From Desulfobacteraceae bacterium (GTDB lineage Bacteria > Desulfobacterota > Desulfobacteria > Desulfobacterales > Desulfosalsimonadaceae), in contig QZKW01000015.1 in assembly GCA_003599885.1 (NCBI GenBank), positions 1-44,233 of the forward strand: a stretch of DNA of 44,233 nt, read 5' to 3'. The stretch's first letter is position 1. Each line of letters opens with the position of its first letter. The notes under the pieces were generated by a model. It was given only the letters and a program-made list of their open reading frames with translations, had not been told where the DNA came from and searched no databases. The position numbers and the translations under genes are program-made. Below, piece by piece: positions 17,881 through 33,400 of the stretch.

Positions 17881-19572
17881 TTACTCTGCTTTCCAAAGGG
17901 GTGTACCGGGTGATTCAGCCATGATTTTTTCCTGCGCGCCCAGCAGGGTTTTATATCCGCCGCTCAGGTTTCTGGCGTTAAATCCTTTTTGGGACAGAAT
18001 GCGATACCCGACATATCCTCGAAGTCCGATGGCGCAGAACAGAATATAATTTTTTTCCGGATCAAGCTCAGTCAGCCGGTCCCGGAGTTCGGGTAGCGGA
18101 ATATGCATTGCATTTGCAATAGCGCCGACTTGTTTCAATTCATCATTATTTCTCAGGTCGATCAGCACATCCGTACCGGGATCCAGATCAAACAATTCGT
18201 TCCAGTTAATGTTGCGGACATCTCCTTTCAGGATATTCACGGCCACAAACCCCGCGATATTAACCGGATCTTTTGCTGAAGAATATGGCGGCGCATAGGC
18301 CAGTTCCAGCTCCTCAAGATCATAGACGGTCATGGAACCATGAATGGCAGTGGCGAGGATGTCAATTCGCTTGTCCACTCCCTGCTTGCCGATAATCTGC
18401 GCGCCCAGAACCTTGCCGGAACTTGGTGAAAACAAGAGTTTGATAGCCATCATTTCCGCGCCAGGATAATAGGATGCATGAGATCCGGAATGTGTGTAAC
18501 TGACCAGAAACGGTATATTGTTGTTTTTTAAAAACCGCTCGTTGGCGCCAGTGGATGCCACCGTCAGCTCAAATATTTTTACTACCGAGGTGCCAAGCGT
18601 GCCTCTAAAAATACTGCTTCGACCCATAACGTTGTCCGCTGCAATCCGGCCCTGCTTGTTGGCCGGGCCGGCCAAAGCCGTCATCGCCGAAAAACCGGTA
18701 CCGTAATCCGTAACTTCCACGGCATCACCCACTGCATAAATGTCCGGATCGGATGTCTGCATGGTGGCGCTGACGCGAATCCCGCCCTTGGGGCTGATGT
18801 TAAGCTCCGCCTCCCTGGCCAGCCGGTTTTCCGGTTTGACGCCGATGGACAGAATCGCAAGATCACAGTCAAGTTCCCTTCCCGCATCCGTATGCGCACG
18901 GAGTTTTCCATTCACTTGCGAGAATGATTGAATGCCTTCACCGAGTAAGCATGCCACATTTTTTTCCTTAAGATGGGCAGACAGGAAACTGGCCATTTCA
19001 TTATCCAGAGAGGGCATCACCTGATCCGATTTTTCGACAATTGTAGTCTTGACCCCCCGAATGACCAGGTTTTCAGCCATCTCAAGACCGATAAAACCGC
19101 CGCCCACCACCACTGCTGTTTCCGGTTTTTGCTCGTCCACGAACTTTTTGATCCGATCGGAATCAGGAATATTTCGCAAATTAAATATGTTGTTACAATG
19201 GATGCCTTCAATGGACGGTACAAAGGGTTCAGCGCCCGGAGACAGGATGATTTTGTCGTAAGGTTCATGGTAAGTTTCACCGGTTTGAACATGGCGCACT
19301 GCCACCCGTTTATTTTTACGGTCTATCGCGGTCACTTCCGTAAACACTCGGATATCAATGTTATACCGTTTTTTAAACGCATCCACGGTTGTTACAAACA
19401 GACTGTCCCGTTTTTTGATGACTTCGCCGATGTAATACGGCAACCCGCAGTTGGCGAAAGAGATGTATTCTCCCCTCTCAAACAGAATGATTTCCGCATT
19501 TTCATTCAACCGCCTGGCCCTGGCAGCAGCTGTTGCGCCGCCGGCAACCCCTCCAATAATTAACAGTTTCAT
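17881..19572 (-). CDS. CoA-disulfide reductase with rhodanese domain
   Basis: A 563-residue FAD/NAD(P)H flavoprotein of the CoADR-RHD group, which reduces CoA disulfide, CoA persulfide or polysulfide. The FAD motif GGVAGGATAAARARR opens the protein, and the single redox cysteine Cys42 sits in SFANCGLPYYIGE. VVVGGGFIGLEMAENL binds NAD(P)H and DIYAVGDAVEV is the second FAD contact. Residues from about 465 form a rhodanese domain with the complete loop CAIGLR (CxxGxR), so sulfur transfer between the two centres is plausible. GAGGAGG precedes the ATG. In a sulfur-metabolising anaerobe this fits sulfane-sulfur handling. Confidence 0.93.
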   Translation of the reverse strand: MKLLIIGGVAGGATAAARARRLNENAEIILFERGEYISFANCGLPYYIGEVIKKRDSLFVTTVDAFKKRYNIDIRVFTEVTAIDRKNKRVAVRHVQTGETYHEPYDKIILSPGAEPFVPSIEGIHCNNIFNLRNIPDSDRIKKFVDEQKPETAVVVGGGFIGLEMAENLVIRGVKTTIVEKSDQVMPSLDNEMASFLSAHLKEKNVACLLGEGIQSFSQVNGKLRAHTDAGRELDCDLAILSIGVKPENRLAREAELNISPKGGIRVSATMQTSDPDIYAVGDAVEVTDYGTGFSAMTALAGPANKQGRIAADNVMGRSSIFRGTLGTSVVKIFELTVASTGANERFLKNNNIPFLVSYTHSGSHASYYPGAEMMAIKLLFSPSSGKVLGAQIIGKQGVDKRIDILATAIHGSMTVYDLEELELAYAPPYSSAKDPVNIAGFVAVNILKGDVRNINWNELFDLDPGTDVLIDLRNNDELKQVGAIANAMHIPLPELRDRLTELDPEKNYILFCAIGLRGYVGYRILSQKGFNARNLSGGYKTLLGAQEKIMAESPGTPLWKAE

Positions 19573-19623
19573 TCAAGTTCCTCCTCGCAGTGTTTTTCAC
19601 ATTGGACATGTATATGGATAGAT

Positions 19624-20232
19624 TCAGATGTCTTTTTTATCATCAGTCAAATCCTTCAGCACCAGGCCCTCGCCCGGATAAACCGCTCTTTCAGAAACCG
19701 GGGTTGGCGTCATAACCACCGGCCAGCAGCCGGGAACGGGCTCTGCCCCTTCCTTAGCTGCCTGTGATGGATGACGGTCCTTCATTTGCGGGTATTTGCG
19801 TAAATCCACGGCCTGGATCTGCACACTAAACTCTACCGGAATATGATTGGGGTCAAATGAATACACCGAATGGATAAATCCGTGATCCATGACTTCGGAA
19901 ATCCAGAAACCGGCGGCCATTATCCGGTCGCGAAGAGTCCAAAGCATTTCCGCATCCGTCACCCCTAAAGACACGTGATCAAAGCAAAAAGGCCCCTTCA
20001 CCGGAACCCCATGATCTTTTTCAGGAATCGGCGCGACATCCGGCCATTCAAAAAAAGCGATCATATCTGTTTCGGAGAGTTCAAAAAAATAATGCCGGTA
20101 GCGATGGTCGCCGATACCCGCGATCAAGCGAAGTCCAAGCAGGTCCCGCCAGTAACGGATGGTGGTGTCCATATCCCTGGTGGCGAACGCCAGATGATTG
20201 ATTCCGTTAAACGTTATCCGGTTAACGTTCAT
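19624..20232 (-). CDS. VOC-fold (glyoxalase/dioxygenase-like) protein
   Basis: This protein of about 202 residues has the vicinal-oxygen-chelate fold. Metal ligands are visible as NHLAFATRD (His), FDHVSLGV (His) and PVEFSVQI (Glu), with IRYWRDLLGL typical of the first module. The C-terminal 45 residues are an extra tail. The start at 20232 has AGGGG in front; in-frame ATGs five and seven codons upstream are possible. The substrate is unknown; glyoxalase-like, lyase and ring-cleaving activities all occur in this superfamily. It ends 51 bp before the CoA-disulfide reductase gene. Confidence 0.85.
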   Translation of the reverse strand: MNVNRITFNGINHLAFATRDMDTTIRYWRDLLGLRLIAGIGDHRYRHYFFELSETDMIAFFEWPDVAPIPEKDHGVPVKGPFCFDHVSLGVTDAEMLWTLRDRIMAAGFWISEVMDHGFIHSVYSFDPNHIPVEFSVQIQAVDLRKYPQMKDRHPSQAAKEGAEPVPGCWPVVMTPTPVSERAVYPGEGLVLKDLTDDKKDI

Positions 20233-20331
20233 AGTCGCCCCTATCATCCCCATTAATGAACGAATGCATTATTAAAAACAATTCTATATTTGACAAATTA
20301 CGACGGACAGGTACAAAAGTCAAATTACAGC

Positions 20332-20360
20332 ATGACATCCTGATTAATGTTTAGGATAAT
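20332..20360 (+). promoter_or_regulatory. Promoter of the DUF3783 gene
   Basis: ATGACA and GATAAT are exactly 17 bases apart, each five of six matches to the sigma-70 consensus. The start site would lie about 45 bases before the ATG at 20412. A second, weaker pair (TTGACA at 20290, TACAAA at 20312) lies upstream. Confidence 0.65.
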
Positions 20361-20411
20361 GAAAGGAAAGACATTAATTTCGTTAAAAGATTTCTATTCG
20401 GAGGAGCAGCC

Positions 20412-20822
20412 ATGAGCTTAAAAGTCGTCGGAGAGTCAAAAAAGCGGATGTACGGGCCAAGAGGCCTGATCGTGTGCGGATTTTCATCAGAAGAACGAAC
20501 AGCCGTCAAAAACCTTTTCGAATCAACAACTTTCAATCAGGTGCCGGTGGTGTTCTCAACCGATTCGGACCGACAGGTCCAGGTCAAGGATTTACTGGCA
20601 AGAAATCATCATTCGGGTGCGGACCAGTCCTGTTCCCTGGAATGCGCAATCATCATGTCCGGCGTAACCGAACAGGAACTGCATTTTATCATGGCCGAAT
20701 ACAAGAAAACCGGCCTGCCCAAACCCCTGTGGGCCACACTCACGCCCACGTCAGAAAACTGGACCATCGAGGCTCTGATCACTGAACTGGCCAGCGAGCA
20801 CAGACAAATAGGGCATCACTGA
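20412..20822 (+). CDS. DUF3783 domain protein
   Basis: A 136-residue soluble protein with a C-terminal DUF3783-like segment from about residue 80 (VTEQELHFIMAEYKKTGLPKPLWATLTPTSENWTIEALITEL). The family has no known function. Residues 15-75 look like a small alpha/beta fold (GLIVCGFSSEERTAVKNLF). GGAGGAGC precedes the ATG. It is a single plus-strand gene between the VOC and yedF genes and converges on yedF with five bases between the stop codons, so a link to selenium or sulfur metabolism is only positional. Confidence 0.75.
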   Translation: MSLKVVGESKKRMYGPRGLIVCGFSSEERTAVKNLFESTTFNQVPVVFSTDSDRQVQVKDLLARNHHSGADQSCSLECAIIMSGVTEQELHFIMAEYKKTGLPKPLWATLTPTSENWTIEALITELASEHRQIGHH

Positions 20823-20827
20823 AGTGA

Positions 20828-21424
20828 TCAAAGATTGATCACCTTGTCCGCCAACTGCATGGCTGTCACAATATCCAGCATATTGGTGGTTTCGCCCACC
20901 TGTTTGGCGTCCAGCAGATTGAAATAGGTCAGGCATGTGCCGCAAACCATAATGGTCACACCGGCTTGGGCGATGTCCTGTAAATCCGGCAGCGTGTCAG
21001 CGCCTGACACCGTCAGCTTGACACCGTTGTTGACAAACACCAGCCGCCACAGTTCGGGACCCATTTCTTTCAATGTCTTGATAAAACTGATCATGAGCTT
21101 CTGGCCCAGAATATCATCGCCATATCCGATGCGGTCGGTGGCCACCATTATCATGATCTTCTGGGTGCCGGAATTTGAGGTTTTATCTGACAAAGGTTTA
21201 GACGATGTATTATGGCCCCGTGTTCCGGTGATGCGGAAATCAGGCCCTTCCGGCGTTACCGACGACTGATAAGACCGGGATTCTAAAAATCGGGTGACAT
21301 TTTGACGTGCGGCGTCATTGTCGACAAGGATTTCCATTTCTGACGGATTATCGTTTTCAATGGCCTGTTTTGCCGCGAGAACAGGTGCCGGACACGCCAG
21401 TTTACGGGCGTCAATTATTTTCAT
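20828..21424 (-). CDS. yedF: Selenium metabolism protein YedF (TusA + DsrE-like)
   Basis: This 198-residue protein matches the YedF family of selenium metabolism. Residues 1-70 are a TusA/SirA-type domain with the CPAPVLAAKQAIE motif, whose Cys10 would be the sulfur or selenium carrier. Residues from about 88 form a DsrE-like domain ending in CGTCLTYFNLLDAKQVGETTNMLDIV, with conserved cysteines. The fusion is found in bacteria that make selenoproteins or selenium-modified tRNA. GGGAGG precedes the ATG. It diverges from a LysR regulator of the selenium-associated type, which supports the assignment. Confidence 0.92.
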   Translation of the reverse strand: MKIIDARKLACPAPVLAAKQAIENDNPSEMEILVDNDAARQNVTRFLESRSYQSSVTPEGPDFRITGTRGHNTSSKPLSDKTSNSGTQKIMIMVATDRIGYGDDILGQKLMISFIKTLKEMGPELWRLVFVNNGVKLTVSGADTLPDLQDIAQAGVTIMVCGTCLTYFNLLDAKQVGETTNMLDIVTAMQLADKVINL

Positions 21425-21495
21425 GAAGTCCTCCCAGTATTTTAATGATTGCTGTTTAATTTCGCTAAATATATATTATCATATTCAATAATTCA

Positions 21496-21535
21496 AATTG
21501 CAAATTTCAATAGGAAATGGAATTGCAATTGAAAT
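21496..21535. promoter_or_regulatory. Candidate LysR operator between yedF and lysR
   Basis: AATTGCAA occurs twice, at 21496 and 21521, exactly 25 bases apart. Overlapping this, ATTTCAAT (21504-21511) and ATTGAAAT (21528-21535) form an inverted repeat with a 16-base spacer. Symmetrical AT-rich sites of this kind between a lysR gene and its divergent target are typical autoregulatory operators. Confidence 0.5.
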
Positions 21536-21568
21536 AATTAATACAACAGGCATTCAGGCGGGCACCAC

Positions 21569-22468
21569 ATGGACATATGGCATCTCCAGGTTTTTCAAAA
21601 AGTAGTTGAAATGAAAGGGTTTTCAAATGCGTCCAAGGCCGTCAGCCTGACCCAGCCCACCATCAGCAGCCACATAAAAGAACTGGAATCCTATTATGGC
21701 TGCAAGCTCCTCGACCGGCTTGGAAAACAGGCCCTGCCCACCAGGGCCGGCGAACTGCTTTATGCGTATGCGGGCAAACTCATCTCCCTGTTTGCGGAAA
21801 CCGAAACCGCTATGGCCGAATTTACCGGCAACATCAGCGGTCGCCTGGTCATGGGCGGCAGCACCATTCCCGGCAGCTATATTCTCCCCCGCGCCATCGG
21901 CCAATTTGTCAAGCAATACCCGGATGTCAATATCACCGTGATTGTCGGCGATACGGATCAAGTCATCGAAGAAATTTTAAATTTCCGGAGCGAGTTCGCC
22001 GTGGTGGGCGCTAAAACCGATTCACACAAAATTGATCAGCAAAAGCTGATTGAAGATGATATGCGTCTGATTGTTCCTGCCGGCCATCCATGGGCTGATA
22101 AAAAACAGGTGACCCTTGACATGCTGATGTCCGAGCCTTTTATCATCAGGGAACACGGTTCCGGCACCCTTCAATCCATTCAGAAAAGCCTTTCCCACAG
22201 CAACAAAGAGATTTCGTCCCTGAATGTCATTGCAGAGCTGGGCAGCACCGCAGCGGTGATCCAGGGGATTAAAAACCATGTCGGCATTTCGATTCTGTCC
22301 CCGATCGCGGTAGCAGAAGAACTGGCCGCAGGATCCCTCAAGGCTCTTACCATTAAAAATGTGGACCTCAAACGCCACTTTTATCTGACGACTCACAAAG
22401 ACCGTACGCCTTCCCCCCTATGCCGGGAATTTATCCGTTTTCTCGAACAATACCTTCAGCGGCCTTAA
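21569..22468 (+). CDS. LysR-family regulator, selenium-metabolism associated
   Basis: A 299-residue LysR-type regulator. The N-terminal winged helix-turn-helix is clear (MDIWHLQVFQKVVEMKGFSN, then AVSLTQPTISSHIKELE). The co-inducer domain follows (GRLVMGGSTIPGSYILP onward), ending near LTIKNVDLKRHFYL. MDIWHLQVF with early SNASKAVSLTQP is the style of the LysR subgroup found with YedF and selenium genes. The gene is divergent from yedF across 144 bp carrying symmetrical repeats. The effector is unknown. Confidence 0.9.
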   Translation: MDIWHLQVFQKVVEMKGFSNASKAVSLTQPTISSHIKELESYYGCKLLDRLGKQALPTRAGELLYAYAGKLISLFAETETAMAEFTGNISGRLVMGGSTIPGSYILPRAIGQFVKQYPDVNITVIVGDTDQVIEEILNFRSEFAVVGAKTDSHKIDQQKLIEDDMRLIVPAGHPWADKKQVTLDMLMSEPFIIREHGSGTLQSIQKSLSHSNKEISSLNVIAELGSTAAVIQGIKNHVGISILSPIAVAEELAAGSLKALTIKNVDLKRHFYLTTHKDRTPSPLCREFIRFLEQYLQRP

Positions 22469-22844
22469 AATATATAACCTATTGACAATAAACAAAAAAA
22501 TGAAATAGAAAAAGCCAATTTTAGGACATCACCCCCCCTCCCCGGCAGTTACAAAAAAACCGCCAAAAAATAATTCATTTTTTAATTGACAAGCTATTCA
22601 CATGCGATCATATACGGGAAAAAACAACTATTTGTCGTTTATGCAACACAGGTGCTTTTTATGAAATTCCGGTTTACGTAGCAAAATAATATGAAGATAT
22701 TTTTGGCCCCAGATATGATGGCGCTTCACCATATGAATAGTGCATATAATTTTTTAAAAATGGTGGGCGCTTTTTTGTTGACGGCCGCACAATTCTGCGA
22801 CCGTTGGAATAACCCAGGCAGAATAAACTCCAAGGAGAAAATCA
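22469..22844. other. Gene-free leader upstream of the aminomutase operon
   Basis: This 376-base AT-rich stretch has no convincing gene. It contains a weak promoter-like pair (TTGACA at 22586, CATATA at 22609), a seven-codon frame (22661-22681, MKFRFT), and the terminator-like hairpin at 22721-22776. It does not resemble the lysine riboswitch: no L-box core sequence is visible. Confidence 0.5.
22721..22776 (+). terminator. Terminator-like hairpin ahead of the aminomutase gene
   Basis: The arm GCGCTTCACCAT (22721-22732) pairs with ATGGTGGGCGC (22760-22770), with one bulge and a wobble, and is followed by six T residues. It lies 250 bases after lysR and 69 bases before the aminomutase ATG. The left arm can also fold locally as ATGG/CCAT (22718-22732), which would compete with the terminator. 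It may be an attenuator or simply the lysR terminator. Confidence 0.45.
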
Positions 22845-24173
22845 ATGCAGCAGATAACGCCTGAAAATGAGCAATCTCCATTTTTGGAACAGGAAGACGA
22901 ACCTCCCAGTAGATGTCTCCATCGTGAGCTGAAGCTGAGACCCTCCTTTTTAATCCCTGATCGGCAGTTAACCCTTCCCTCATTCCCCCGCCAGATTCAG
23001 AAGGACGCTTTGACCAGAAAGCGTTCCTTTCGCAAACGGTTTTTTCCCGGCGTTACCGACAAACAGTGGAACAACTGGCAATGGCAGGTCCAGAACCGGA
23101 TCAGTACACCCACCCAGTTGAATCGCTTTTTGAAGCTTTCCAATGAGGAGCAAAGTGCATTTCACAACTTAAACGTCAAGATTCCGCTGGGTATCACACC
23201 TTATTATATGAGTCTGCTGCCTGCGGATGAACCGGACAATCCGCTCCGGCGAACGGTTGTTCCAACCGTGCATGAACTGTTCAAGGTACCTGGGGAAGCC
23301 AATGATCCCCTGAATGAAGAAGCCCAGAGCCTGGTGCCCGGACTGGTACACCGGTATCCGGACAGGGTGCTGCTGCTGCTGATCGATTTCTGTTCCGTGT
23401 ATTGCCGGTACTGCACCCGCGCCCGAATGATCGGACGAGGGAATATCCATGCCGGTGGCTTGCGGCTGGAGAAAGCCATTGAGTATATCAAAAACACCCC
23501 GACCATCCGGGATGTGCTCCTGTCCGGCGGTGATCCGCTGACCTTGAGTGACAAAAAACTGGACTGGGTGCTCTCCCAAATTCGGGCGATTCCCCATGTC
23601 GAGATCATCCGTATCGGCACCAAGGTTCCGGCGGTTCTTCCCCAGCGTATTACTCCCCAACTGGTGAAAATGCTGCGCAAATATCATCCCCTGTGGATGA
23701 GTCTGCATTTTACCCATCCGGATGAATGCACGCCCGAAGCCTATCGCGCAACCCGGTTGCTGGCTGATGCTGGAATCCCCTTAGGCTCGCAAACTGTCCT
23801 GCTCAAGGGCGTCAACGATACTGTGGAAACCATGAAAGACCTGATGCATCATTTGATGAAAATGCGGGTCCGGCCTTATTACCTTTACCAGTGCGATCCG
23901 GTGACCGGCACCAGCCATTTCAGGACGACTGTGGAAAAAGGCATGGAAATTATCCGCGGGCTCCGGGGCCATACCTCCGGATATGCAGTACCCAACTATG
24001 TGGTGGACGCTCCTGGCGGCGGCGGTAAAATTCCGGTCATGCCAAATTATGTCATGGGGCATCAGGAAAACGACCTCGTGTTATGTAATTATGAAGATAA
24101 AATTTTCCGGTATCCTGACAGCGTGGATAATTTTAATCAGTATCCGGATCAAGGGAGCATTCATGGCTGCTGA
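22845..24173 (+). CDS. kamA: Lysine 2,3-aminomutase-type radical SAM enzyme
   Basis: This 442-residue PLP- and radical-SAM-dependent enzyme most likely converts L-lysine to beta-lysine. The iron-sulfur motif is Cys183, Cys187, Cys190 (CSVYCRYC). Asp351 and Asp388 are 37 residues apart and Lys395 lies in DAPGGGGK. From established work on the Clostridium subterminale enzyme (C125/C129/C132, D293, D330, K337), the spacings are identical. The two aspartates bind the lysine side-chain amine there and are Lys and Asn in glutamate 2,3-aminomutase, so lysine is favoured. It has about 58 more N-terminal residues than that enzyme and is longer than EpmB. AAGGAG precedes the ATG. It heads an operon with two ATP-grasp genes. 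Confidence 0.92.
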   Translation: MQQITPENEQSPFLEQEDEPPSRCLHRELKLRPSFLIPDRQLTLPSFPRQIQKDALTRKRSFRKRFFPGVTDKQWNNWQWQVQNRISTPTQLNRFLKLSNEEQSAFHNLNVKIPLGITPYYMSLLPADEPDNPLRRTVVPTVHELFKVPGEANDPLNEEAQSLVPGLVHRYPDRVLLLLIDFCSVYCRYCTRARMIGRGNIHAGGLRLEKAIEYIKNTPTIRDVLLSGGDPLTLSDKKLDWVLSQIRAIPHVEIIRIGTKVPAVLPQRITPQLVKMLRKYHPLWMSLHFTHPDECTPEAYRATRLLADAGIPLGSQTVLLKGVNDTVETMKDLMHHLMKMRVRPYYLYQCDPVTGTSHFRTTVEKGMEIIRGLRGHTSGYAVPNYVVDAPGGGGKIPVMPNYVMGHQENDLVLCNYEDKIFRYPDSVDNFNQYPDQGSIHGC

Positions 24174-24206
24174 TCACACTTATTTCCTTTATTTTCAAAA
24201 GGATCA

Positions 24207-25211
24207 TTGATGAAGGTCGGCTTGGCATACGACCTGCGGGTGGATTATCTGGCAATGGGGTACAGCCGCCAGGAAACCGCAGAATTTGACCGGGAAGAAA
24301 CCATTCTTGCCATTGAAAGCGCACTTCAGGGAATGGGGCATGCCACAGACCGCATCGGCAATGCCTGGAAGCTCACCGAACGCCTGGTGAGGGGTGACCG
24401 CTGGGATCTGGTGTTTAATATCGCCGAAGGGCTTCACGGGATCGCCCGTGAAGCCCAGGTTCCGGCAATTCTGGATTTATACCAGATCCCCTATACGTTT
24501 TCAGACCCCGTTGTCATGGGTCTGACCCTGCACAAGGGAATGACCAAACACGTGGTCCGGGGACATGGTTTTCCCTCACCGGATTTCATGGTGGCTGAAT
24601 CAGCAACCGACACCGAAAAAATCGATTTTGCGCCCCCGTATTTCGTCAAGCCTGTGGCCGAGGGCACCGGAAAAGGCATCAGCGGCCAGTCCATCGTCCG
24701 GAATAAAGATCAGCTGGCCGAAGTCTGTGAAACATTGATCAACACCTTTCAGCAGCCGGCACTGGTGGAACAGTATCTTTCCGGACGGGAATTCACTGTG
24801 GGAATTGTGGGCACGGGCAATGACGCGCGCATCCTGGGAACAATGGAAGTTATTCTGCTGGAAAACGCGGAAAAAGGGGGTTACTCCTATGAAAACAAGG
24901 ACAAATATGAAGACCGGGTAGAATATCGTCTGGTAAAGTCTGAAGACGACCCGTCGGTGGCTGAGGCGGAAAAAATCGCCCTCGGTACCTGGCGGGCTCT
25001 GGGATGCCGGGACGGAGGAAGGACGGATTTACGATGCGACAGTGAAGGAAAGCCGTATTTTCTGGAAGTCAACCCCCTGGCCGGGCTGAATCCGGAACAC
25101 TCGGACCTGCCTATCCTGTGCCGCCATCTGGGTCTTCCCTACAATGAATTAATCGGGGAAATCTTTTTATCAGCCGCAAAGCGGGTAGACCGAACGGCCA
25201 GGAAGTCATGA
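24207..25211 (+). CDS. D-Ala-D-Ala-ligase-like ATP-grasp enzyme
   Basis: A 334-residue ATP-grasp ligase related to D-alanine--D-alanine ligase. It shows the N-terminal substrate region (FNIAEGLHGIAREAQVPAILDLYQIPYTFSD), the ATP-binding lysine segment (YFVKPVAEGTGKGIS), EQYLSGREFTVGI and the metal-binding end (RTDLRCDSEGKPYFLEVNPLAGLNPEHSDL). It should activate a carboxylate by ATP and form an amide, but it is unlikely to be the cell-wall Ddl because it sits between an aminomutase and an ATP-grasp/GNAT fusion and has no mur neighbours. AAAGGATC precedes the ATG. The next gene overlaps by four bases. Confidence 0.88.
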   Translation: MMKVGLAYDLRVDYLAMGYSRQETAEFDREETILAIESALQGMGHATDRIGNAWKLTERLVRGDRWDLVFNIAEGLHGIAREAQVPAILDLYQIPYTFSDPVVMGLTLHKGMTKHVVRGHGFPSPDFMVAESATDTEKIDFAPPYFVKPVAEGTGKGISGQSIVRNKDQLAEVCETLINTFQQPALVEQYLSGREFTVGIVGTGNDARILGTMEVILLENAEKGGYSYENKDKYEDRVEYRLVKSEDDPSVAEAEKIALGTWRALGCRDGGRTDLRCDSEGKPYFLEVNPLAGLNPEHSDLPILCRHLGLPYNELIGEIFLSAAKRVDRTARKS

Positions 25212-26836
25212 ATACCCTCCCACAAAAAATGCGCGTGGCCATAGCGTATAACCGGGTAAATGAAACCGGAACGCCAGACGAGAAAGACGTATTAGACCAG
25301 GTGGCGGCAGTGTCTGAAGCCCTTGCCGAGCTTGGTCATCAGCCGGCAGAACTTCCATGCGACCTTAATTTAACGGCATTCAAACAAAAAATCATAGAGA
25401 TCCAGCCCGACATGGTGTTCAATCTGGTCGAATCTCTGGATGGCCATGGCCGCCTGATCGGCACTGTTCCCAGCCTGTTCGACGCGATGGCTATCCCATA
25501 CACCGGTGCCCCCTTCGGTGCCATCCATGAGACATCCCACAAGACCCTGTCCAAGGAGCGGATGTGGACCACCGGGCTTGCGACCCCAGTTTACATCGGA
25601 CCCTGGCCGCCCGAGTCTTGCACAAAGCTCGCCATGCCCAATGGGATGGAATGGTTCAAAGGCCCGTGGATCATCAAATCCGTCTGGGAACATGCGTCTT
25701 TGGGCATCAGCGGCGATGCGCTGGTCTTTAAAAATTGCCCGGAAGATCTGATGGAGGAATTGGAGCAGCGTGCCCCTGAACTCGGCGGTGCCTGTTTTGC
25801 CGAGCAATACATTGAGGGCCGGGAGTTCAACCTCTCCATCATTGCCGGACAAAATGGATCAGACGGGCCGGTTGTGTTGCCGACTGCCGAAATCGTGTTT
25901 GAAAATTTTACAGACAACCAGCCACGCATCGTTTGCTACAAGGCCAAATGGGATGAAACCTCGTTTGAATATACCCACACCCGCCGGAGATTTGACTTCA
26001 CAGAATCCGACTCAGCCCTGCTGAGCGAACTTCAAGAAATGGCTTTCCGGTGTTGGCGGGTCTTTAATTTACGGGGATACGCCCGGGTGGATTTCCGTGT
26101 GGACAGTCAAAACCGGCCCTGGATTCTGGAAGTCAACGCCAATCCCTGCCTGTCGCCAGACGCCGGTTTTTCGGCTGCGGTGAAACAGTCCGGAATGACG
26201 TTTGCTCAAGCTGTTGAACGCATCCTTATGGATGCGATGCCTCTTAAAAAATTTCCATTTGCAGAACCCGTCATACCCCCCGCCAAGGCGCTCCGGGGTC
26301 ATGAGATTTTCCAAAAATCAAAAACGTTGGATACTGTTTTCCGTTATGAGGCATGCCCGCAGGATATCCGGGACATCCGGGATATGGTGGAAGCCACCGG
26401 TTTTTTCCAATCCTATGAGGTCGATGTGGCGGTGGAACTGGTGGAAGACCGATTGGCGAGAGGAACTGCCAGCGACTATTCCTTTGTGTTTCTGGAAAAA
26501 CAGGGTTGCCTTGCCGGATACGCCTGCTACGGCCCTATCCCCTGCACAGTATCAAGCTTTGACCTTTACTGGATAGCCGTTCATCCGGACTTTCAGCGGC
26601 AGGGACTGGGCCGCATGATCAATGATGAAATTGAGCGATTGATTCAAACAGCAGGCGGAACCCGGATTTACATCGAAACCTCGCAAAGCAGCGCATACGA
26701 GCCCACCCGGTCTTTTTACAAAAGTCTCGGTTACCTGCCCGCCGCTGTTCTCGAAGATTTTTACGCGCCGGGAGATGCAAAAGGGATTTACTGCAAGAAA
26801 CTCACCGACTCGCCGATTGATAATGAATTGAAATAA
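25208..26836 (+). CDS. ATP-grasp ligase fused to a GNAT acetyltransferase
   Basis: A 542-residue two-domain protein. Residues 1-355 are a second Ddl-like ATP-grasp domain: FNLVESLDGHGRLIGTVPSLFDAMAIPYTG, the WIIKSVWEHASLGIS ATP site, and a C-terminal metal site RVDFRVDSQNRPWILEVNANPC. Residues from about 375 form a GNAT acetyltransferase with IAVHPDFQRQGLGRMIND, the acetyl-CoA motif, and YEPTRSFYKSLGY. The start overlaps the previous gene as ATGA. A ligase and an acetyltransferase on one chain suggest an N-acetylated amide product. N-acetylglutaminylglutamine amide synthesis uses a comparable GNAT/ATP-grasp fusion in the opposite order. The true substrates are unknown. Confidence 0.88.
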   Translation: MNTLPQKMRVAIAYNRVNETGTPDEKDVLDQVAAVSEALAELGHQPAELPCDLNLTAFKQKIIEIQPDMVFNLVESLDGHGRLIGTVPSLFDAMAIPYTGAPFGAIHETSHKTLSKERMWTTGLATPVYIGPWPPESCTKLAMPNGMEWFKGPWIIKSVWEHASLGISGDALVFKNCPEDLMEELEQRAPELGGACFAEQYIEGREFNLSIIAGQNGSDGPVVLPTAEIVFENFTDNQPRIVCYKAKWDETSFEYTHTRRRFDFTESDSALLSELQEMAFRCWRVFNLRGYARVDFRVDSQNRPWILEVNANPCLSPDAGFSAAVKQSGMTFAQAVERILMDAMPLKKFPFAEPVIPPAKALRGHEIFQKSKTLDTVFRYEACPQDIRDIRDMVEATGFFQSYEVDVAVELVEDRLARGTASDYSFVFLEKQGCLAGYACYGPIPCTVSSFDLYWIAVHPDFQRQGLGRMINDEIERLIQTAGGTRIYIETSQSSAYEPTRSFYKSLGYLPAAVLEDFYAPGDAKGIYCKKLTDSPIDNELK

Positions 26837-26871
26837 ACCGGTTCTATTCATCAGGAGGGAGCGTATCCGCA

Positions 26872-27504
26872 TTGGAACTCTGGCAAGAATACGTTAAATT
26901 TTTTGTGGGGCTGTTCTCGATTGTGAACGCAATCGGTACGCTGCCGGTCTTTATCAACCTCACCGAGAATTTTTCCGAAGCCCAGCAATTACGGACCGCA
27001 CGCATCGCGGCGTTCACCTGCTGCATCGTGCTGCTGCTTACTCTGGTGACGGGAGAACTGCTTCTTAAATTTTTCGGGATTTCCATCGGCTCGTTCCGGG
27101 TGGGCGGCGGCATCCTTCTTCTGCTCATGGCCATTTCCATGATGCACGCACGTCTGAGCAATGTGAAACAAACCCCGGAGGAAGCCATTGATAAAGCCAA
27201 CAGTGATTCGGTGGCGGTGGTGCCGCTGGGTCTGCCCCTGCTGGCAGGCCCCGGCGCCATCAGCGCGGTCATATTGTACGCGAACCGTTATCCTTCGGTG
27301 ACCCATTACAGCATTCTCGGAGGCGAAATCATTCTCATGTCTTTGATTATATGGGGCATCTTCCGTGCCTCCCATTTTCTTTCCAATCTCCTGGGACGAA
27401 CGGGGATCAATATTGTCACACGGATCATGGGTCTGATCATGGCGGCGATCGGCATTGAATTTATCGCCAGTGGAATCAAGCAGCTTTTCCCAGTACTTGC
27501 GTAA
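26872..27504 (+). CDS. MarC-family integral membrane protein
   Basis: A 210-residue protein of the MarC/UPF0056 family with six hydrophobic segments. Characteristic parts are FFVGLFSIVNAIGTLPVFINLT at the start, FRVGGGILLLLMAISM in the middle and VPLGLPLLAGPGAISAVI. Neither drug efflux nor amino-acid export is proven for the family. Translation probably starts at TTG (26872) behind AGGAGG, because no in-frame ATG or GTG is available between the site and the conserved sequence. It is 35 bp after the ATP-grasp/GNAT gene and may handle the same product. Confidence 0.9.
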   Translation: MELWQEYVKFFVGLFSIVNAIGTLPVFINLTENFSEAQQLRTARIAAFTCCIVLLLTLVTGELLLKFFGISIGSFRVGGGILLLLMAISMMHARLSNVKQTPEEAIDKANSDSVAVVPLGLPLLAGPGAISAVILYANRYPSVTHYSILGGEIILMSLIIWGIFRASHFLSNLLGRTGINIVTRIMGLIMAAIGIEFIASGIKQLFPVLA

Positions 27505-27507
27505 CCT

Positions 27508-28950
27508 TTAGTGCTTGACTTTGATATTCACCTCAACATCCGGCCACGGTTTCCCCACCGGCTGAATGGTTTGCGGTGTAATAATTTTACACAACACCCG
27601 GGTGTTTTCGTTAATGCTTTCCAGATAAATCGGAGTCGTCGTTACCGTAAGGGCTCTTTCTCCCTTCTCGGGTGTGGGGGCCGATACCCGAACCTTTTGC
27701 GGGAGGACATCCACCGAACGAATCTTGAAACCGGACGGAAGGCTACCGACAAGTTGCGGAACAACCGTCGCCCATTGTTCCGCGATGGACGCGAGCGTTA
27801 ATTCCAGTTTTGATGGAATCACTTCCAGAAGCTTCACCCCTTTGGGGAGATTGACATTCTCGCTGGTAATAAAATACGTCTGGGTTCCGGGCTTAAACTG
27901 GGACAAATCGATTTTTAAACCCAGATCCGCAGAAGCGACACCATCCATATGGGATTTGGTCCCTCCAAGAACCAGTTGCACCTCTTTTTCCCTCGCCCCC
28001 ACCAGGGCGAGGTTCGGTCCTGAAGCGGAATATTCCACCGGCACCGTAACAGGACGCTCCACCCATTCGCCCTGGGCCACAATAATGGTGGACCAGAAGA
28101 CGACAGCAAGCGCAAAGCTTATCGCCATCTGACGAAAAACCGACAGCCGGGAATGGCCATCTTTAAGTTCGAACAAATAAGAAGAATTGTCTTTCCAGTG
28201 GGACAAAATGGCGGTCTGTAATTCCTCTTTGCTTGCCGGCTTCCACATTTCCCCTTTATGAAATAAAGACAGTTGGCCGCGTTCTTCTGAAACGACGCAG
28301 ACCAGAGCGTCCGTGGTTTCGGCCAGGCCCATGGCCGCGTGATGACGGGTGCCGTATTCCGCCGGCAGCTTCGCGGTATGGGAAAGCGGCAGCCGCACAC
28401 CGAACTGGGAAAACAGCCCCCTGGAAATAACCAGCGCCCCGTCATGCCCGGGAGAGTTCGGGTCAAAAATGCTCATCAGCAGGGGAAGACTGGGCCTGGC
28501 TTTCAGAATATACCCTCCGGACAGGGACTCCTGAATATTTTCCTTTCCGGGCAATACGATAATGGCGCCGCGATATTCCTTAGCCAGAGCAAACAATCCG
28601 TCTACGATAATTCGGGACAAAACATTTCCGGGATCGCTGATTTCGGAACGCCGGATGGACACCGCCCGTTCGAAGATTTTTCGCAGCTCCGGCTGAAAAA
28701 TAACAATCAGCGCGATCAGCACCACATGGCTGAGATTGCTGTAAATCCATTTGATGCCATTCAGGTTCAACACATTGGCCATCAGGAATATCGACATCGC
28801 CACCAGCATGCCGGCCATAATTTTCCATGTGCCGAGCCGCTTCAGCGTCCGGTAGAGAACAAACAAACCGGCCGCAATCAGTGAAACATCGATCATATTC
28901 CGCCAGACAAGAAACTCCTTGATCAAGGCCAGCGTACCCATGTGGGTCAT
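27508..28950 (-). CDS. cdaA: Membrane diadenylate cyclase fused to YbbR repeats
   Basis: A 480-residue protein that would make cyclic di-AMP at the membrane. Three N-terminal helices (about 15-85) lead to FQPELRKIFE and a diadenylate cyclase domain (95-255) with HDGALVISRG (Asp170, Gly171, Ala172) and GTRHHAAMGLAE (202-204). The canonical motif is RHR, so the last position here is His. A fourth membrane helix (274-292) is followed by about 190 residues with YbbR/CdaR-type repeats (VTVPVEYSASGPNLALVG; IDLSQFKPGTQTYFI). In Firmicutes, CdaA and its regulator CdaR are separate neighbours; here they are one chain. The ATG at 28950 has GGAGG in front. It converges on the MarC gene. Confidence 0.9.
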   Translation of the reverse strand: MTHMGTLALIKEFLVWRNMIDVSLIAAGLFVLYRTLKRLGTWKIMAGMLVAMSIFLMANVLNLNGIKWIYSNLSHVVLIALIVIFQPELRKIFERAVSIRRSEISDPGNVLSRIIVDGLFALAKEYRGAIIVLPGKENIQESLSGGYILKARPSLPLLMSIFDPNSPGHDGALVISRGLFSQFGVRLPLSHTAKLPAEYGTRHHAAMGLAETTDALVCVVSEERGQLSLFHKGEMWKPASKEELQTAILSHWKDNSSYLFELKDGHSRLSVFRQMAISFALAVVFWSTIIVAQGEWVERPVTVPVEYSASGPNLALVGAREKEVQLVLGGTKSHMDGVASADLGLKIDLSQFKPGTQTYFITSENVNLPKGVKLLEVIPSKLELTLASIAEQWATVVPQLVGSLPSGFKIRSVDVLPQKVRVSAPTPEKGERALTVTTTPIYLESINENTRVLCKIITPQTIQPVGKPWPDVEVNIKVKH

Positions 28951-28968
28951 CAATCCCTCCGGATGTAT

Positions 28969-29346
28969 TTATTCCTGATGATCTGTCGTATTGAACACAT
29001 AAGATGAAACGATATTGTCCTTGTTAAAATGAATGACCAGATCCTTGGTTTTGGAATCCCCAATGAGCCGGTATTGATATCTTCCGTAAGTCCATGTGGT
29101 CTTTCCATCTTCGATGCCCACCCGCCACGGCGAACCGAACATGTCCCGGAGATCATCCTGGGTGGTCTTCCCGATTTGGATGTCAAGCACCCGGCGATCC
29201 GCAAAATCCCTTCCCATGTTGGCGCAACCCGTTGCAACCAGGATCACGGCCAGAAAAGAAATCATCCGGCAGAAAAAAACCATCGGTCTGACGGGGCAAT
29301 TAAGAGAGCCGTGAGATAACTCCGCCTGCATTTGATTGTGTAACAT
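28969..29346 (-). CDS. BamE/SmpA-like small lipoprotein
   Basis: The 125-residue product has a lipoprotein signal ending LAVILVATGC, with the acylated cysteine at residue 41. A BamE/OmlA-like domain follows (VLDIQIGKTTQDDLRDMFGSPWRV, then TTWTYGRYQYRL). AGGAG lies eight bases before the ATG at 29346, although this gives an unusually long stretch before the hydrophobic core; an ATG at 29283 would give a normal signal but has no ribosome site. It precedes the diadenylate cyclase gene by 18 bases on the same strand. It is probably a periplasm-facing outer-membrane lipoprotein of unknown role. Confidence 0.8.
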   Translation of the reverse strand: MLHNQMQAELSHGSLNCPVRPMVFFCRMISFLAVILVATGCANMGRDFADRRVLDIQIGKTTQDDLRDMFGSPWRVGIEDGKTTWTYGRYQYRLIGDSKTKDLVIHFNKDNIVSSYVFNTTDHQE

Positions 29347-29405
29347 GATGCTTTCTCCTGATACATTGATTTATGAAGAAATAATACAGCCTGCAAATTT
29401 TATGG

Positions 29406-29684
29406 CTAATCTTCCACTGCATCTTTCAACGTTTTTCCGGGTTTAAATTTGACGACATTCTGGGCAGGGATGGTTATTTCCGCTCCTGTTCCGGGATTTC
29501 TCCCTTTGCGTTCTTCTTTGTGGACCGTTAAGAATGTTCCGAAACCGGTCAACTGGATTTTCCCATTATCGGTTTTTAATGTTTCCAGAATGCCATCCAT
29601 TAAAGAATTTAAAGCGATCCCCGCTTTTTCTTTTGTGATGTCAGCCTCTTTTGCCATGTGGTCAATCAGTTCTGCTTTGGTCAT
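29406..29684 (-). CDS. HU-family DNA-binding protein
   Basis: The HU/IHF fold is clear over 92 residues: MTKAELIDHMAKEADITKEKAG, then the beta-arm region GFGTFLTVHKEERKGRNPGTGAEITIPA and the end VVKFKPGKTLKDAVED. The start is taken at 29684, eight bases after GGA; two tandem ATGs directly upstream are equivalent alternatives. Longer upstream reading is not HU-like. It would be a dimeric nucleoid protein. HU and IHF subunits cannot be separated confidently from sequence alone here. Confidence 0.94.
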   Translation of the reverse strand: MTKAELIDHMAKEADITKEKAGIALNSLMDGILETLKTDNGKIQLTGFGTFLTVHKEERKGRNPGTGAEITIPAQNVVKFKPGKTLKDAVED

Positions 29685-30030
29685 CATCATCTTCCTTTTT
29701 AATTTTATAATTTTACTTACAAAGCCATTGTTCTTGCCCATTTGAATAAATCAACATGGCATTAGATTGCAATGCTTATTCCCAAAAAATCAATGAAAAA
29801 AAAGATACGCATAAAAATTGTAAAACACGGCGGTTAAAAATGAATATGCCTTGATATCTGGAGAATATTGCTCTAATGTAATTTCCTCTAAAGTTCTGGA
29901 AAGACGACCTGTCCGGGCGGATTTTACGGATCAGTCCATTCAGGCGATCAAACAGCGAACTACCTGTACGTTTACTAAAAATTACAATAACAAAAAAACA
30001 GCGAACCGGATTACATTCATAGAGGCGGCA
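29685..30030. other. Divergent spacer between HU and dksA genes
   Basis: This region of about 346 bases separates two divergent genes. A weak plus-strand promoter-like pair (TTGATA at 29851, TAATGT at 29874, 17 apart) would give dksA an untranslated leader of about 150 bases. The frame upstream of the dksA ATG stays open to 29851 but its sequence does not resemble DksA, so I read it as leader. Confidence 0.4.
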
Positions 30031-30396
30031 ATGGAAGAAAAAGATCTCGAATATTTCACCCAGCTTTTAAATACTCAGCTTGCCGAGCTGGAAAACCGGA
30101 CCAAGTATACCGATATCCGTGAAATGACCCAGAACAACGGGCTTCAGGACCCGCTGGACATTGCTTCATCGGATATGGAAAAAAACATGCTGCTTCGGAT
30201 CAGGGAACGGGAAAGCCGGCTGATTTCAAAAATTAAACAAGCACTTGAACTTATTGCTGAAGGGACGTACGGCACCTGTGAAATTTGCGGCGATGATATC
30301 CCGGTGAAACGCCTGGAAGCACGACCGGTTACGACCCAATGCATTGAATGTAAAACCAGAGAAGAACTCATCGAGCGGATACGTCAAAACAAATGA
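30031..30396 (+). CDS. dksA: DksA/TraR family RNA polymerase-binding protein
   Basis: A 121-residue protein with the DksA arrangement. It has an N-terminal helix, the coiled coil with DPLDIASSDMEKNMLLRIRERE (bearing the acidic tip residues) and a four-cysteine zinc finger CEICGDDIP...CIECK. A family member binds the secondary channel of RNA polymerase and works with ppGpp in the stringent response. I start at ATG 30031 behind AGAGG, because the upstream extension has no similarity to the family. It is followed by the glycogen cluster 84 bp downstream. Confidence 0.9.
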   Translation: MEEKDLEYFTQLLNTQLAELENRTKYTDIREMTQNNGLQDPLDIASSDMEKNMLLRIRERESRLISKIKQALELIAEGTYGTCEICGDDIPVKRLEARPVTTQCIECKTREELIERIRQNK

Positions 30397-30480
30397 TTTT
30401 TTTCAATTATCTGAGTTGGGTAATCAATGATCCTGCATTTCACGTTCATTTATTAACCGGTTCAGAACGAAGAGGAGCCT

Positions 30481-33400
30481 ATGACCAGTATGCACCTCAC
30501 ACAAACACCCGCTCCCGGAACCAGCTGCGTCAGGTTCCGCGGAGACACCATCACCTTTTCCCTTGATTTGTCCAATGCCGTTTCCGGCAATGCCTGGCTG
30601 AGAACCACTCTTGGAAAGACTAAAACAACCCGAAACGAAATAATTCAAACTGTCAGGCAGGACGACCCGATACTGGCGCGGGCATGGTATGATATCCCCA
30701 TGACACGCTTAAATTCCAGGCAGTTTGAAATCACTTTGGGCTTGACTGAAGTCGGCCATTTTGAAGCCAAATGCCTTTTTTTTAAAACCAACGAGTCGAC
30801 ACCTGTATGGCCCGACGGTGACAATGCCGTCATCAACGTAGAAACTGCGGACATGTGTTGCGGCAACATCATCTATAATGCCTTTGTCCGTCAGTTTGGT
30901 CCCAACAAATCCGGCGCTGTCAAGAATTCGCCAAAAAAAAACGCCGGCATACAGGCTCTGGATCAGGAAGGGTATACCGTCATTCCACCCTCAGGCACTT
31001 TCCGGGACTTGATTGGCGAGCTTGACTTTATCATCCATACCCTCGGCTGCCGCATCCTGCATCTGCTGCCCATCAATCCGACCCCCACCACCTATGGCCG
31101 TATGGGCAGGTTCGGAAGTCCCTATGCAGCCCTTGATTTCACTGGCATTGACCCGGCCCTTGCAGTGTTTGACCCCAAAGCGACACCGCTTGAACAGTTT
31201 ATCGAACTGGTGGATGCGGTTCATCGTAGAAACGCCAAAATCATAATTGATCTGGCCCCGAACCACACCGGGTGGGCTGCGGAACTCCATGAAACCCATC
31301 CCCAGTGGCTGGTCCGGGACAAGGAAGGCAAAATCGAAGCCCCCGGCGCCTGGGGTGTCGTCTGGGAGGATTTGACCCGGCTGGATTACACCAACAGGGA
31401 ACTATGGAAATACATGGCCGATGTATTTCTGACCTGGTGCCACCGCGGGGTGGACGGGTTCCGGTGCGACGCGGGCTATATGATTCCCGTTCCGGCCTGG
31501 AACTTTATTGTGGCCTCGGTCAGAGACCAGTATCCGGACACGATTTTCTTTCTGGAAGGTCTGGGCGGCAAGATTTCCGTGACCCGTCAGATTTTAAATG
31601 AATCCAACTTTAACTGGGCATACTCGGAATTGTTTCAGAACTATGACCGGGGACAGATTGAATCCTACCTGCCCCAGTCGGATCGTATATCTGTTGAAGA
31701 CGGATTAATGATCCATTTTGCCGAAACCCATGACAACAATCGCCTGGCAGCGACTTCGAATGAGTATGCCGCCATGCGCACCGCCTTGTGCGCCCTGGTT
31801 TCCCAGTGCGGGGGCTTCGGGTTCGCCAATGGAGTGGAATGGTTTGCCGACCAGAAAATCATGGTTCACGACGCCTGTTCTCTGAACTGGAAAACCCAAA
31901 TCAACCAGGTGGACTGGATTGGGCGGATCAACCGGCTGCTGACCCGCCACCCGGCATTTTTTGATCAGGCCCGTATCCAGATGATTCAGCAGGGAGAAGG
32001 GAATTTCCTGGCTATCTTGCGGCACCATCCGCCTTCCCGGAAACAGGTTCTGGTGCTTATCAACCTGGACATGAACGCATCCGTTCAGGCAGCCTGGGAA
32101 GTCCGGGCCACCGGAATTTCATCATCAACCTGTATGGATTTATTGACCGGCCAGCCGGTCTGCCTAAAAAAGGACAATGAACGATACCTTTGCCTTCTGC
32201 CGCCCGGCGCTGTCCGCTGCCTGTCATTTGACCCCGAGGACGCGGATATCATTGAACCAGACCGCGATTTTCCAACGGATGGACAAATAACACCTGCTTT
32301 GCCGGAACGCATCATCGACCAGCGCCTTCGGGCCCTTATCCTGGATGTATACCGATGCATCAGCGGCACCATAAAGCTGGAAGGCTTGGACATGGATCAG
32401 GCCATCAGGTCCATCGTCCTTGATCCTGAAGACTTCTGCCGCTCCATGAATCCGCATTCCAAAGAAAGCCGCGTCGTCACCTGGCAATATCCATGTGACT
32501 GCCGACGGCAGGTCATGGTGCCGCCGGATCATTTTTTACTGGTCCGGTCACACCATCCCTTTCATGCCAAAATGATGGACAGCAAAAGAAGGACCGGGAA
32601 AACCCTTGCAGCCCATCATAGTTTGAAAAGCCATAACGGCAATCATTTTGCGTTGTTTATGCCTCAACCCGTCCCCGGACATCACGTAAGCGGTCTGCTG
32701 AAATTAACGGTTTTTGCGGATGCCAAAAATGATCATGTGGATGCGCCCGTCATCTATCTCACCGGCTCAGAAAACGCTAAGGTCAAAAACATTTTTACCC
32801 GCCACGAATTATTAAACCATCCCTTACGTTTTTTAGGGACCAACGGACGGGGCGGCATGATGCGGGCAAATGCCTGGTGGGGAAAAATCGAAAGCAAATA
32901 TGACGCGCTTCTGGCCGCCAACCTGAATCCGGATTATCCCGACACCCGATGGATGATGCTGATCCGCTGCCGGGCATGGCTGGTTTTTCAGGGGTACTCA
33001 CAGACAATCTCCACAGATTGCCTGAAACGATTCTGGTTTGATTCCCGCTCGCAATGCGGATGGGAATTTGCTATTCCCTGCGGACAGGGTCAGCATGTAC
33101 TCCTGATCGTAAACGCGGCCATGTTTCCCGGTATCAATCGCATCCGGCTGTCATTTGCCCGGGGAAAAGCTCATGGCGACCCCCGGCTCATGCCCGACTA
33201 TAAGAGTGTTCAATTGATTCTTCGACCGGATATTGATGACCGCAGCTTTCACCACACCACCAAGGCCTATGCCGGGCCGGAATCGCAATGGCCCGCTGCA
33301 ATCGCTCCCAGGCCCCAGGGTTTTATGTTCACGCCCCATCCGGACCGGGTTCTTGAAATCGCGGCTTCTGCGGGGAAATTCACTCTGGAGCCGGAATGGC

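Follow-up and report, generated by a model that had tools for sequence, protein, structure and literature searches.

Which product is made by a gene cluster that places a lysine 2,3-aminomutase-type enzyme beside two ATP-grasp ligases and an N-acetyltransferase? The question is raised by a locus in Desulfobacteraceae bacterium (assembly GCA_003599885.1, 4.5 Mb in 90 contigs), in positions 1 to 44,233 of contig QZKW01000015.1. This whole stretch of 44,233 nucleotides is referred to here as the window, and the contig carrying the cluster as C35. The cluster encodes a radical S-adenosylmethionine (SAM) aminomutase (KamA), two ligases with the fold of D-Ala-D-Ala ligase (Ddl), named AG1 and AG2 after their position, and an acetyltransferase of the GNAT family, which is fused to AG2 in the window. 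Judged from sequence, it is fairly likely that KamA, AG1, AG2 and GNAT together synthesise a small molecule, an acetylated amide or peptide of beta-lysine.

The genes for KamA, AG1, AG2-GNAT and a MarC-type membrane protein are consecutive on the plus strand (Table 1). All four coordinates were confirmed and, together with the Pfam and NCBIfam assignments, agree with the initial annotation, which had described four adjacent families on one strand. AG1 and AG2 overlap by 4 bases, a gap of 35 bases separates AG2-GNAT from marC, and the start codon of AG1 is TTG at 24207 or the next codon, ATG at 24210. Both the LAM_C and the Radical_SAM domains of KamA exceed the Pfam cut-offs. The Pfam scores of AG1 and AG2 for Dala_Dala_lig_C, GNAT for Acetyltransf_1 and MarC are 91.2, 68.6, 44.8 and 203.4 bits, respectively, and MarC also matches NCBIfam NF008320 (245.4 bits, cut-off 216).

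Table 1. Genes and domains of the cluster and its flanks (positions in the window)
Feature	Positions	Strand	Family or model
KamA-type radical SAM aminomutase, predicted lysine 2,3-aminomutase (P0001)	22845..24173	+	LAM_C, Radical_SAM
AG1, Ddl-fold ATP-grasp ligase, first position (P0002)	24207..25211	+	Dala_Dala_lig_C
AG2-GNAT fusion protein (P0003), entire open reading frame	25208..26836	+	Dala_Dala_lig_C + Acetyltransf_1
AG2, Ddl-fold ATP-grasp domain of P0003, end approximate	25208..26257	+	Dala_Dala_lig_C
GNAT N-acetyltransferase domain of P0003, start approximate	26303..26836	+	Acetyltransf_1
MarC/YchE family membrane protein	26872..27504	+	Pfam MarC; NCBIfam NF008320
LysR-type regulator upstream of KamA; candidate link to cluster only	21569..22468	+	NF040786, over cut-off
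CdaA-type diadenylate cyclase fused to YbbR (c-di-AMP synthase), convergent with cluster	27508..28953	-	

KamA-AG1-AG2-GNAT is a real conserved unit. A search with the AG2-GNAT protein found matches in 73 of 198 genomes of the same phylum, and 569 relatives were confirmed when named genomes were scanned. The 121 mapped loci comprise 40 phylum loci hand-picked from the 73 matching genomes, the best 80 of the 569 named relatives, and the window. All four core genes are present in 85 of them, the window included, and order and strand are the same in 84 (L158 being the sole exception), so that the arrangement, here called the type I layout, is far from chance. The initial annotation had asked whether the neighbouring genes might fail to be conserved together in relatives; the aminomutase, both ATP-grasp enzymes and GNAT are conserved together. 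Labels in the titles of the matched genomes include Desulfobacterota, Planctomycetota, Acidobacteria, Bacteroidales, Ignavibacteria, Calditrichaeota, Aminicenantes, Neomarinimicrobiota, Fibrobacter, Sumerlaeota, Dependentiae and Patescibacteria. Complete sets occur under eight of these labels (Desulfobacterota, Planctomycetota, Acidobacteria, Bacteroidales, Ignavibacteria, Aminicenantes, Fibrobacter and Dependentiae), and most of the named genomes are metagenome-assembled, so that isolated odd taxon labels may reflect binning errors.

Neighbours were counted within 8 kb on the same strand in 119 other AG2 loci (39 phylum and 80 named; L078, whose second ligase was labelled AG1, was left out). 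KamA was present in 34 of the 39 phylum and 64 of the 80 named loci, AG1 in 39 and 73, and GNAT in 34 and 69, respectively. Among the 198 phylum genomes, 66 contain both KamA (at least 375 bits) and AG2, 10 KamA only, 7 AG2 only and 115 neither (Fisher p 2.7e-33, kinship ignored). Thirty-one of the 33 KamA matches of at least 470 bits adjoin AG2, and a 32nd (G104) was found to be adjacent when its locus was fetched. Both bit cut-offs were chosen after the score list had been inspected. The co-occurrence count took one AG2 place per genome, and G104, G167 and G178 were scored as unlinked or mixed despite an adjacent pair.

The first enzyme of the cluster resembles lysine 2,3-aminomutases. KamA has TIGR03820 as its best NCBIfam model (494.2 bits) and matches the solved Clostridium subterminale enzyme 2a5h with 483 bits. 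In a tree of 126 rows, which left out short rows, rows with stops and the KamA of G019 (L183), a clade of 102 rows (SH-aLRT 100) contains 91 of the 99 cluster KamAs and 11 unlinked ones. The other clades contain AblA (support 100; 6 rows), 2a5h with the lysine-fermentation KamAs (95), and the paralogue L005 of the source genome itself (99). The remaining 8 of the 99 cluster KamAs are found at two places among the other KamA clades, an indication that the two ligases came to be paired with KamA more than once. All 102 clade rows, including the window, and all 8 outside rows retain the equivalents of D293, D330, K337 and R134 of 2a5h; D293 and D330 are presumably the aspartates in contact with the side chain of lysine, a role on which no paper was found in the open-licence literature searched. 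One of five other KamA rows carries Lys and Asn at the two Asp positions, which fits L006, a 606-aa KamA relative on contig C41 of the source genome in which the same residues replace the two aspartates. This suggests a different substrate such as glutamate for L006. Three KamAs of the same phylum (L190, L194 and L195), unlike that of the cluster, lie near a KAL gene over its lysine-fermentation cut-off, and a class III aminotransferase is also encoded at L190 and L194, an apparent lysine-fermentation arrangement.

The two ligases retain the catalytic residues of the ATP-grasp fold. Residues were compared in stop-free, sufficiently long sequences (91 KamA, 103 AG1, 116 AG2 and 96 GNAT). K97, K144, E180, E187, K215, R255 and D257 (Ddl numbering) are kept in every AG1 and AG2; E270 and N272 are kept in all 103 AG1 and in 114 and 115 of the 116 AG2, respectively. 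The AlphaFold (AF2) models of AG1 and AG2 have mean confidence (pLDDT) of 93.4 and 90.1. A quick tree of 100 rows from three layouts (34 hand-chosen type I loci, 10 of 11 type II and 6 type III, the latter two described below) separates AG1-position from AG2-position ligases with support 97, and AG1 without the long-branched Ddl with 82.

This likeness to Ddl raises the reading that AG1 and AG2 are cell-wall D-Ala-D-Ala or depsipeptide ligases that lie beside KamA by accident. Both ligases match Ddl families, and the top 50 Foldseek rows for the AG1 model are Ddl or D-Ala-D-Lac ligases (best identity 26%). The residues that line the D-Ala pocket of DdlB are E15, H63, S150, Y216, S281 and L282. 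Two of these positions fit the cell-wall reading: Glu occupies the E15 column in all 103 AG1 and in 69 of 116 AG2, and S281, which in Ddl binds the acceptor carboxylate, is kept in 100 of 103 AG1 but in only 18 of 116 AG2. The others differ. The H63 column is Glu in every AG1 and AG2. At the S150 column AG1 has Thr (91), Ser (11) or Ala (1) and AG2 has Ala (100) or Gly (16), and at the L282 column Asp predominates in AG1 (98 of 103) and Gly in AG2 (113 of 116). The Y216 column is Trp in all 116 AG2, the AG1 alignment being doubtful there. Moreover, both proteins score far below the cut-offs of all listed Ddl models (at best 144.9 vs 243 bits for AG1 and 102.8 vs 243 for AG2), and a separate classical Ddl (L009) is encoded elsewhere in the source genome. 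Because most D-Ala-pocket positions differ, a role of AG1 and AG2 as cell-wall D-Ala-D-Ala ligases, named in the initial annotation as a finding that would speak against its proposal, appears unlikely from these residues, and an accidental placement of such enzymes beside KamA is scarcely credible.

For GNAT, the closest solved relative is 2r7h (139 bits), a putative D-alanine N-acetyltransferase. Of 74 assessable loci, 16 (the window and 15 others out of 73) encode it as a fusion to AG2 and 58 as a separate protein. By the neighbour count used above, 8 of the 39 phylum and 25 of the 80 named loci encode a histone deacetylase-like (HDAC) domain on the same strand, at most 8 kb away. It is fused to GNAT in 33 of 33 assessable loci, so that this fusion is found in 33 of the 119 sampled loci. 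A complete cluster with the GNAT-HDAC fusion is present at L108, which belongs to the cultured Desulfatitalea alkaliphila M08but. The one HDAC domain tested, that of L048, is nearest to acetylpolyamine amidohydrolase (6phr, 243 bits), and differs from it in being fused to GNAT.

The simplest scheme that fits these genes begins with the conversion of lysine to beta-lysine, followed by two ligations that consume ATP and by an acetylation; in it the substrates, ligation order and acetylated site are those we infer. In the first step, KamA is predicted from its residues and homology to convert L-lysine to beta-lysine. In the second and third steps, AG1 and AG2, with their kept ATP-grasp residues, would each use ATP to convert a carboxylate to an acyl phosphate and then transfer the acyl group to an amine; their co-occurrence with KamA suggests that at least one of them uses beta-lysine. 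AG1 would probably form a dipeptide-like amide and AG2 would extend or cap it, since AG1 keeps the Ser for the acceptor carboxylate and AG2 mostly does not. In the fourth step, GNAT would acetylate a free amine of the product, and in some carriers the fusion of GNAT with an acetylpolyamine-type deacetylase could allow the acetyl group to be removed again. Because the aminomutase, the two ATP-grasp enzymes and GNAT are conserved as a unit, the most plausible product is an acetylated beta-lysine amide or small peptide.

Several observations weigh against this pathway. Its activities and product are predicted from gene content. KamA falls below the cut-off of the lysine 2,3-aminomutase model (494.2 vs 525.4 bits), a smaller KamA tree (38 rows) supports the cluster clade at 91 only, and the Ddl-like Glu at the E15 column is still present throughout AG1. 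Five of the 39 phylum loci and 16 of the 80 named ones lack KamA within 8 kb, and 5 and 11, respectively, lack GNAT; some of these misses are contig ends, but not all (L093 is a non-end case). Ten genomes carry KamA of at least 375 bits without AG2. Five of these carry AblB, two (G087 and G051) have KamA near a KAL gene over the lysine-fermentation cut-off, and G034, G043 and G090 have neither link. Conversely, seven genomes carry AG2 without such a KamA, of which G005 and G049 have a partial KamA match. In G072, from the same order as the source, AG1 is cut to about 65 codons (locus L040, 6606-6797) between KamA and AG2-GNAT.

A second layout of the ligase pair brings in another possible product. 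In type II loci (11), a gene for pyruvoyl arginine decarboxylase (PvlArgDC) lies beside AG1-AG2 and KamA is not linked. PvlArgDC adjoins AG2 in 10 of the 198 genomes, and the eleventh, G175, is at a contig end; this count comes from whole-sample tables compared by eye, and 7 of the 11 loci had been fetched because their KamA was unlinked. An agmatinase-like gene is adjacent in 8 of the 11 loci, and in 7 of the 11 genomes PvlArgDC has a gene of the deoxyhypusine synthase family at a distance of about 2 kb or less. All 11 genomes contain an unlinked KamA elsewhere, and the 10 placed in the tree (G019, as noted, was not) all fall in the cluster clade. The KamA of G090 is also in this clade, though G090 has no AG2 match.

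These neighbours would fit a polyamine-like conjugate, in which the ligases join beta-lysine to a di- or polyamine and GNAT together with the acetylpolyamine-type deacetylase tunes its charge. The GNAT-HDAC fusions with their likeness to acetylpolyamine amidohydrolase point the same way, as does an agmatinase gene directly behind GNAT in L060 and L150, which probably represent a single lineage. However, the window genome has no PF01916 or PF01862 match, so PvlArgDC and deoxyhypusine synthase are not required, and its own cluster has no HDAC domain. The acceptor-carboxylate Ser kept in nearly all AG1 also argues against a plain polyamine, which has no carboxylate, and shared operons may reflect shared regulation only. 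A conjugate of this kind is considered rather unlikely. Equally tentative is a broader proposal, which we would not expect to hold as it stands: acetylated beta-lysine conjugates made by a dedicated Ddl-like pair may be a tunable cation across many phyla, a stand-in for or addition to polyamines whose charge is set by acetylation and deacetylation.

An acetylated beta-lysine amide or dipeptide might also be accumulated as a compatible solute under osmotic stress, as the initial annotation proposed, a role that is possible though doubtful. In its favour, a diadenylate cyclase (DAC) gene is present in 6 of 135 other AG2 loci, and cyclic di-AMP (c-di-AMP) controls potassium and osmolytes. For comparison, 54 further query genes were scored: the Ddl gene (entered twice, with paralogue matches) and one multi-match gene exceeded DAC, and the remaining 51 reached 0 to 3. 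The link is one of proximity only, on varying strands and at 0.1 to 6.6 kb, with few controls and copy number unchecked, and is thus a lead rather than a test of osmotic function. Against this role, the carriers include records of Syntrophus and Smithella, which are mostly non-saline, and no osmotic regulator or compatible-solute transporter was recognised by eye among 12 recurrent neighbour groups.

A further reading places the target on a protein, with beta-lysine ligated onto a lysine of elongation factor P (EF-P) or another protein. EpmB, a KamA relative, makes beta-lysine for EF-P, and some ATP-grasp enzymes modify proteins. The source genome, however, already encodes GenX/EpmA over the cut-off (308.6 bits, contig C4), EF-P with a PGKGQ loop (C48) and the other KamA, L005 (C3); neither EpmA nor EF-P lies beside the cluster KamA (C35) or beside L005. 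The EpmB model is missed by both the cluster KamA (254.9 vs 369.3 bits) and L005 (242.6). L005 groups (support 92) with a KamA of G007 that adjoins EpmA and EF-P, whereas the EF-P-linked KamA of G067 is placed apart from these, on a long branch and likewise not within the cluster clade. In a selection of 15 carriers and 15 non-carriers, EpmA exceeds the cut-off in 9 and 8, respectively, so the cluster is not a general replacement of EpmA. The PGKG loop pattern matched in 8 of 14 carrier genomes with an EF-P locus and gave nothing for 6, and only the own-genome result is used here. Given the genome's own EpmA, EF-P and L005, and the KamA trees, an EF-P role was set aside, and a protein target in general is very unlikely.

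The pathway favoured here, leading to an acetylated beta-lysine amide or small peptide, shares parts with two known systems. In common with the AblA/AblB pathway to acetyl-beta-lysine, it combines a KamA of the lysine 2,3-aminomutase type, with both lysine-contact Asp kept, and a GNAT. It differs in having two additional ATP-grasp ligases, and its KamA lies outside the AblA clade and under the AblA equivalog cut-off given above. The AblB family (TIGR03827) has no match in P0003 or in the source genome, and exceeds its cut-off in 7 of the 198 genomes. The synthesis of N-acetylglutaminylglutamine amide (NAGGN) likewise has ATP-grasp and GNAT in one protein, as in the window and 15 of 73 other loci. 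The window ATP-grasp is of the Ddl type, however, and its GNAT is at the C-terminal end, unlike in the NAGGN layout. All 22 NCBIfam families matched by P0003 are Ddl, Van-type ligase or GNAT models and none is a NAGGN model (the library's NAGGN holdings being unchecked). NAGGN synthesis also has a neighbouring glutamine amidotransferase; none was found among the window genes scanned from 17884 to 34791, the open reading frame at 29851-30396 being left out. The aminomutase, two ligases and GNAT of the initial annotation thus stand as a conserved unit, while its literal merger of the AblA/AblB and NAGGN pathways does not: GNAT misses the AblB model, KamA is outside the AblA clade and no NAGGN model is matched. 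To the other families the relations are similarly partial: the ligases share fold and catalytic residues with Ddl and have most substrate-binding positions replaced, and KamA shares its lysine-contact residues with 2a5h from a separate clade.

The cluster appears to be widespread and undescribed. Passages in PMC3543383, PMC1224877 and PMC12776343 describe AblA-AblB and not a KamA-AG1-AG2-GNAT cluster. In the open-licence literature searched, no description of a cluster of aminomutase, ATP-grasp and GNAT was found. A 2009 survey of amidoligases by Iyer and colleagues may reportedly have noted a neighbourhood of KamA and ligases. With its gene order kept under eight phylum-level labels and beta-lysine as a predictable first precursor, the cluster offers a direct way to a new metabolite of wide occurrence. 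Names drawn from likeness to D-Ala-D-Ala ligase would also need correction, as would that of 2r7h.

The MarC protein, proposed in the initial annotation as a possible transporter of the product, is probably a bystander to the pathway, although it is possibly co-transcribed with the cluster in the window. MarC within 8 kb on the same strand was found in 0 of the 119 other AG2 loci, and it was rejected as a conserved part or transporter on this count; in L040 and L058 it lies about 3 kb away on the opposite strand. Membrane proteins inside other clusters include an MFS protein (L081, by Pfam) and DUF486/DMT_6 (L132 by Pfam, L050 by sequence likeness), and no transporter common to the clusters was seen among the inspected loci. 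Anti-phage defence was also considered and dropped, with 0 PADLOC-DB matches for 5 proteins.

Regulatory elements were sought around the cluster. Predicted promoters (5 vs 5.0 expected) and terminators (9 vs 6.8 expected) are within one standard deviation of shuffled sequences, and a regulatory RNA search in 8 relatives gave 3 matches, all of them tRNAs. The sole Rfam match in positions 19000-30000 of the window is a sub-threshold V_AS7 (19387-19551, plus strand; 50.1 bits, gathering 90), which lies within a pyridine nucleotide-disulphide oxidoreductase gene and probably reflects coding conservation.

In a third layout (type III, L200-L204; L073 resembles it less clearly), AG1 is followed by two regulatory genes, a gene of 141 to 150 aa, KamA and AG2. 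The 141-aa protein has no NCBIfam match and reads like a receiver. In L201 the two regulatory genes between AG1 and KamA-AG2 encode a histidine kinase and a sigma-54 activator, a possible sign of control through sigma-54. A passage in PMC12316311 places lysine 2,3-aminomutase among sigma-54-linked genes enriched in Bacilli.

Finally, a small Cys-rich protein is encoded near AG1 in 10 loci, in several of them between KamA and AG1. An open reading frame of 160-229 aa occupies the latter position in L084, L086, L103, L107, L135, L141, L154 and L158, and those whose sequences were printed are Cys-rich. The one scanned (L135) matches CxxCxxCC (PF03692), and the protein is perhaps a metal or Fe-S helper.

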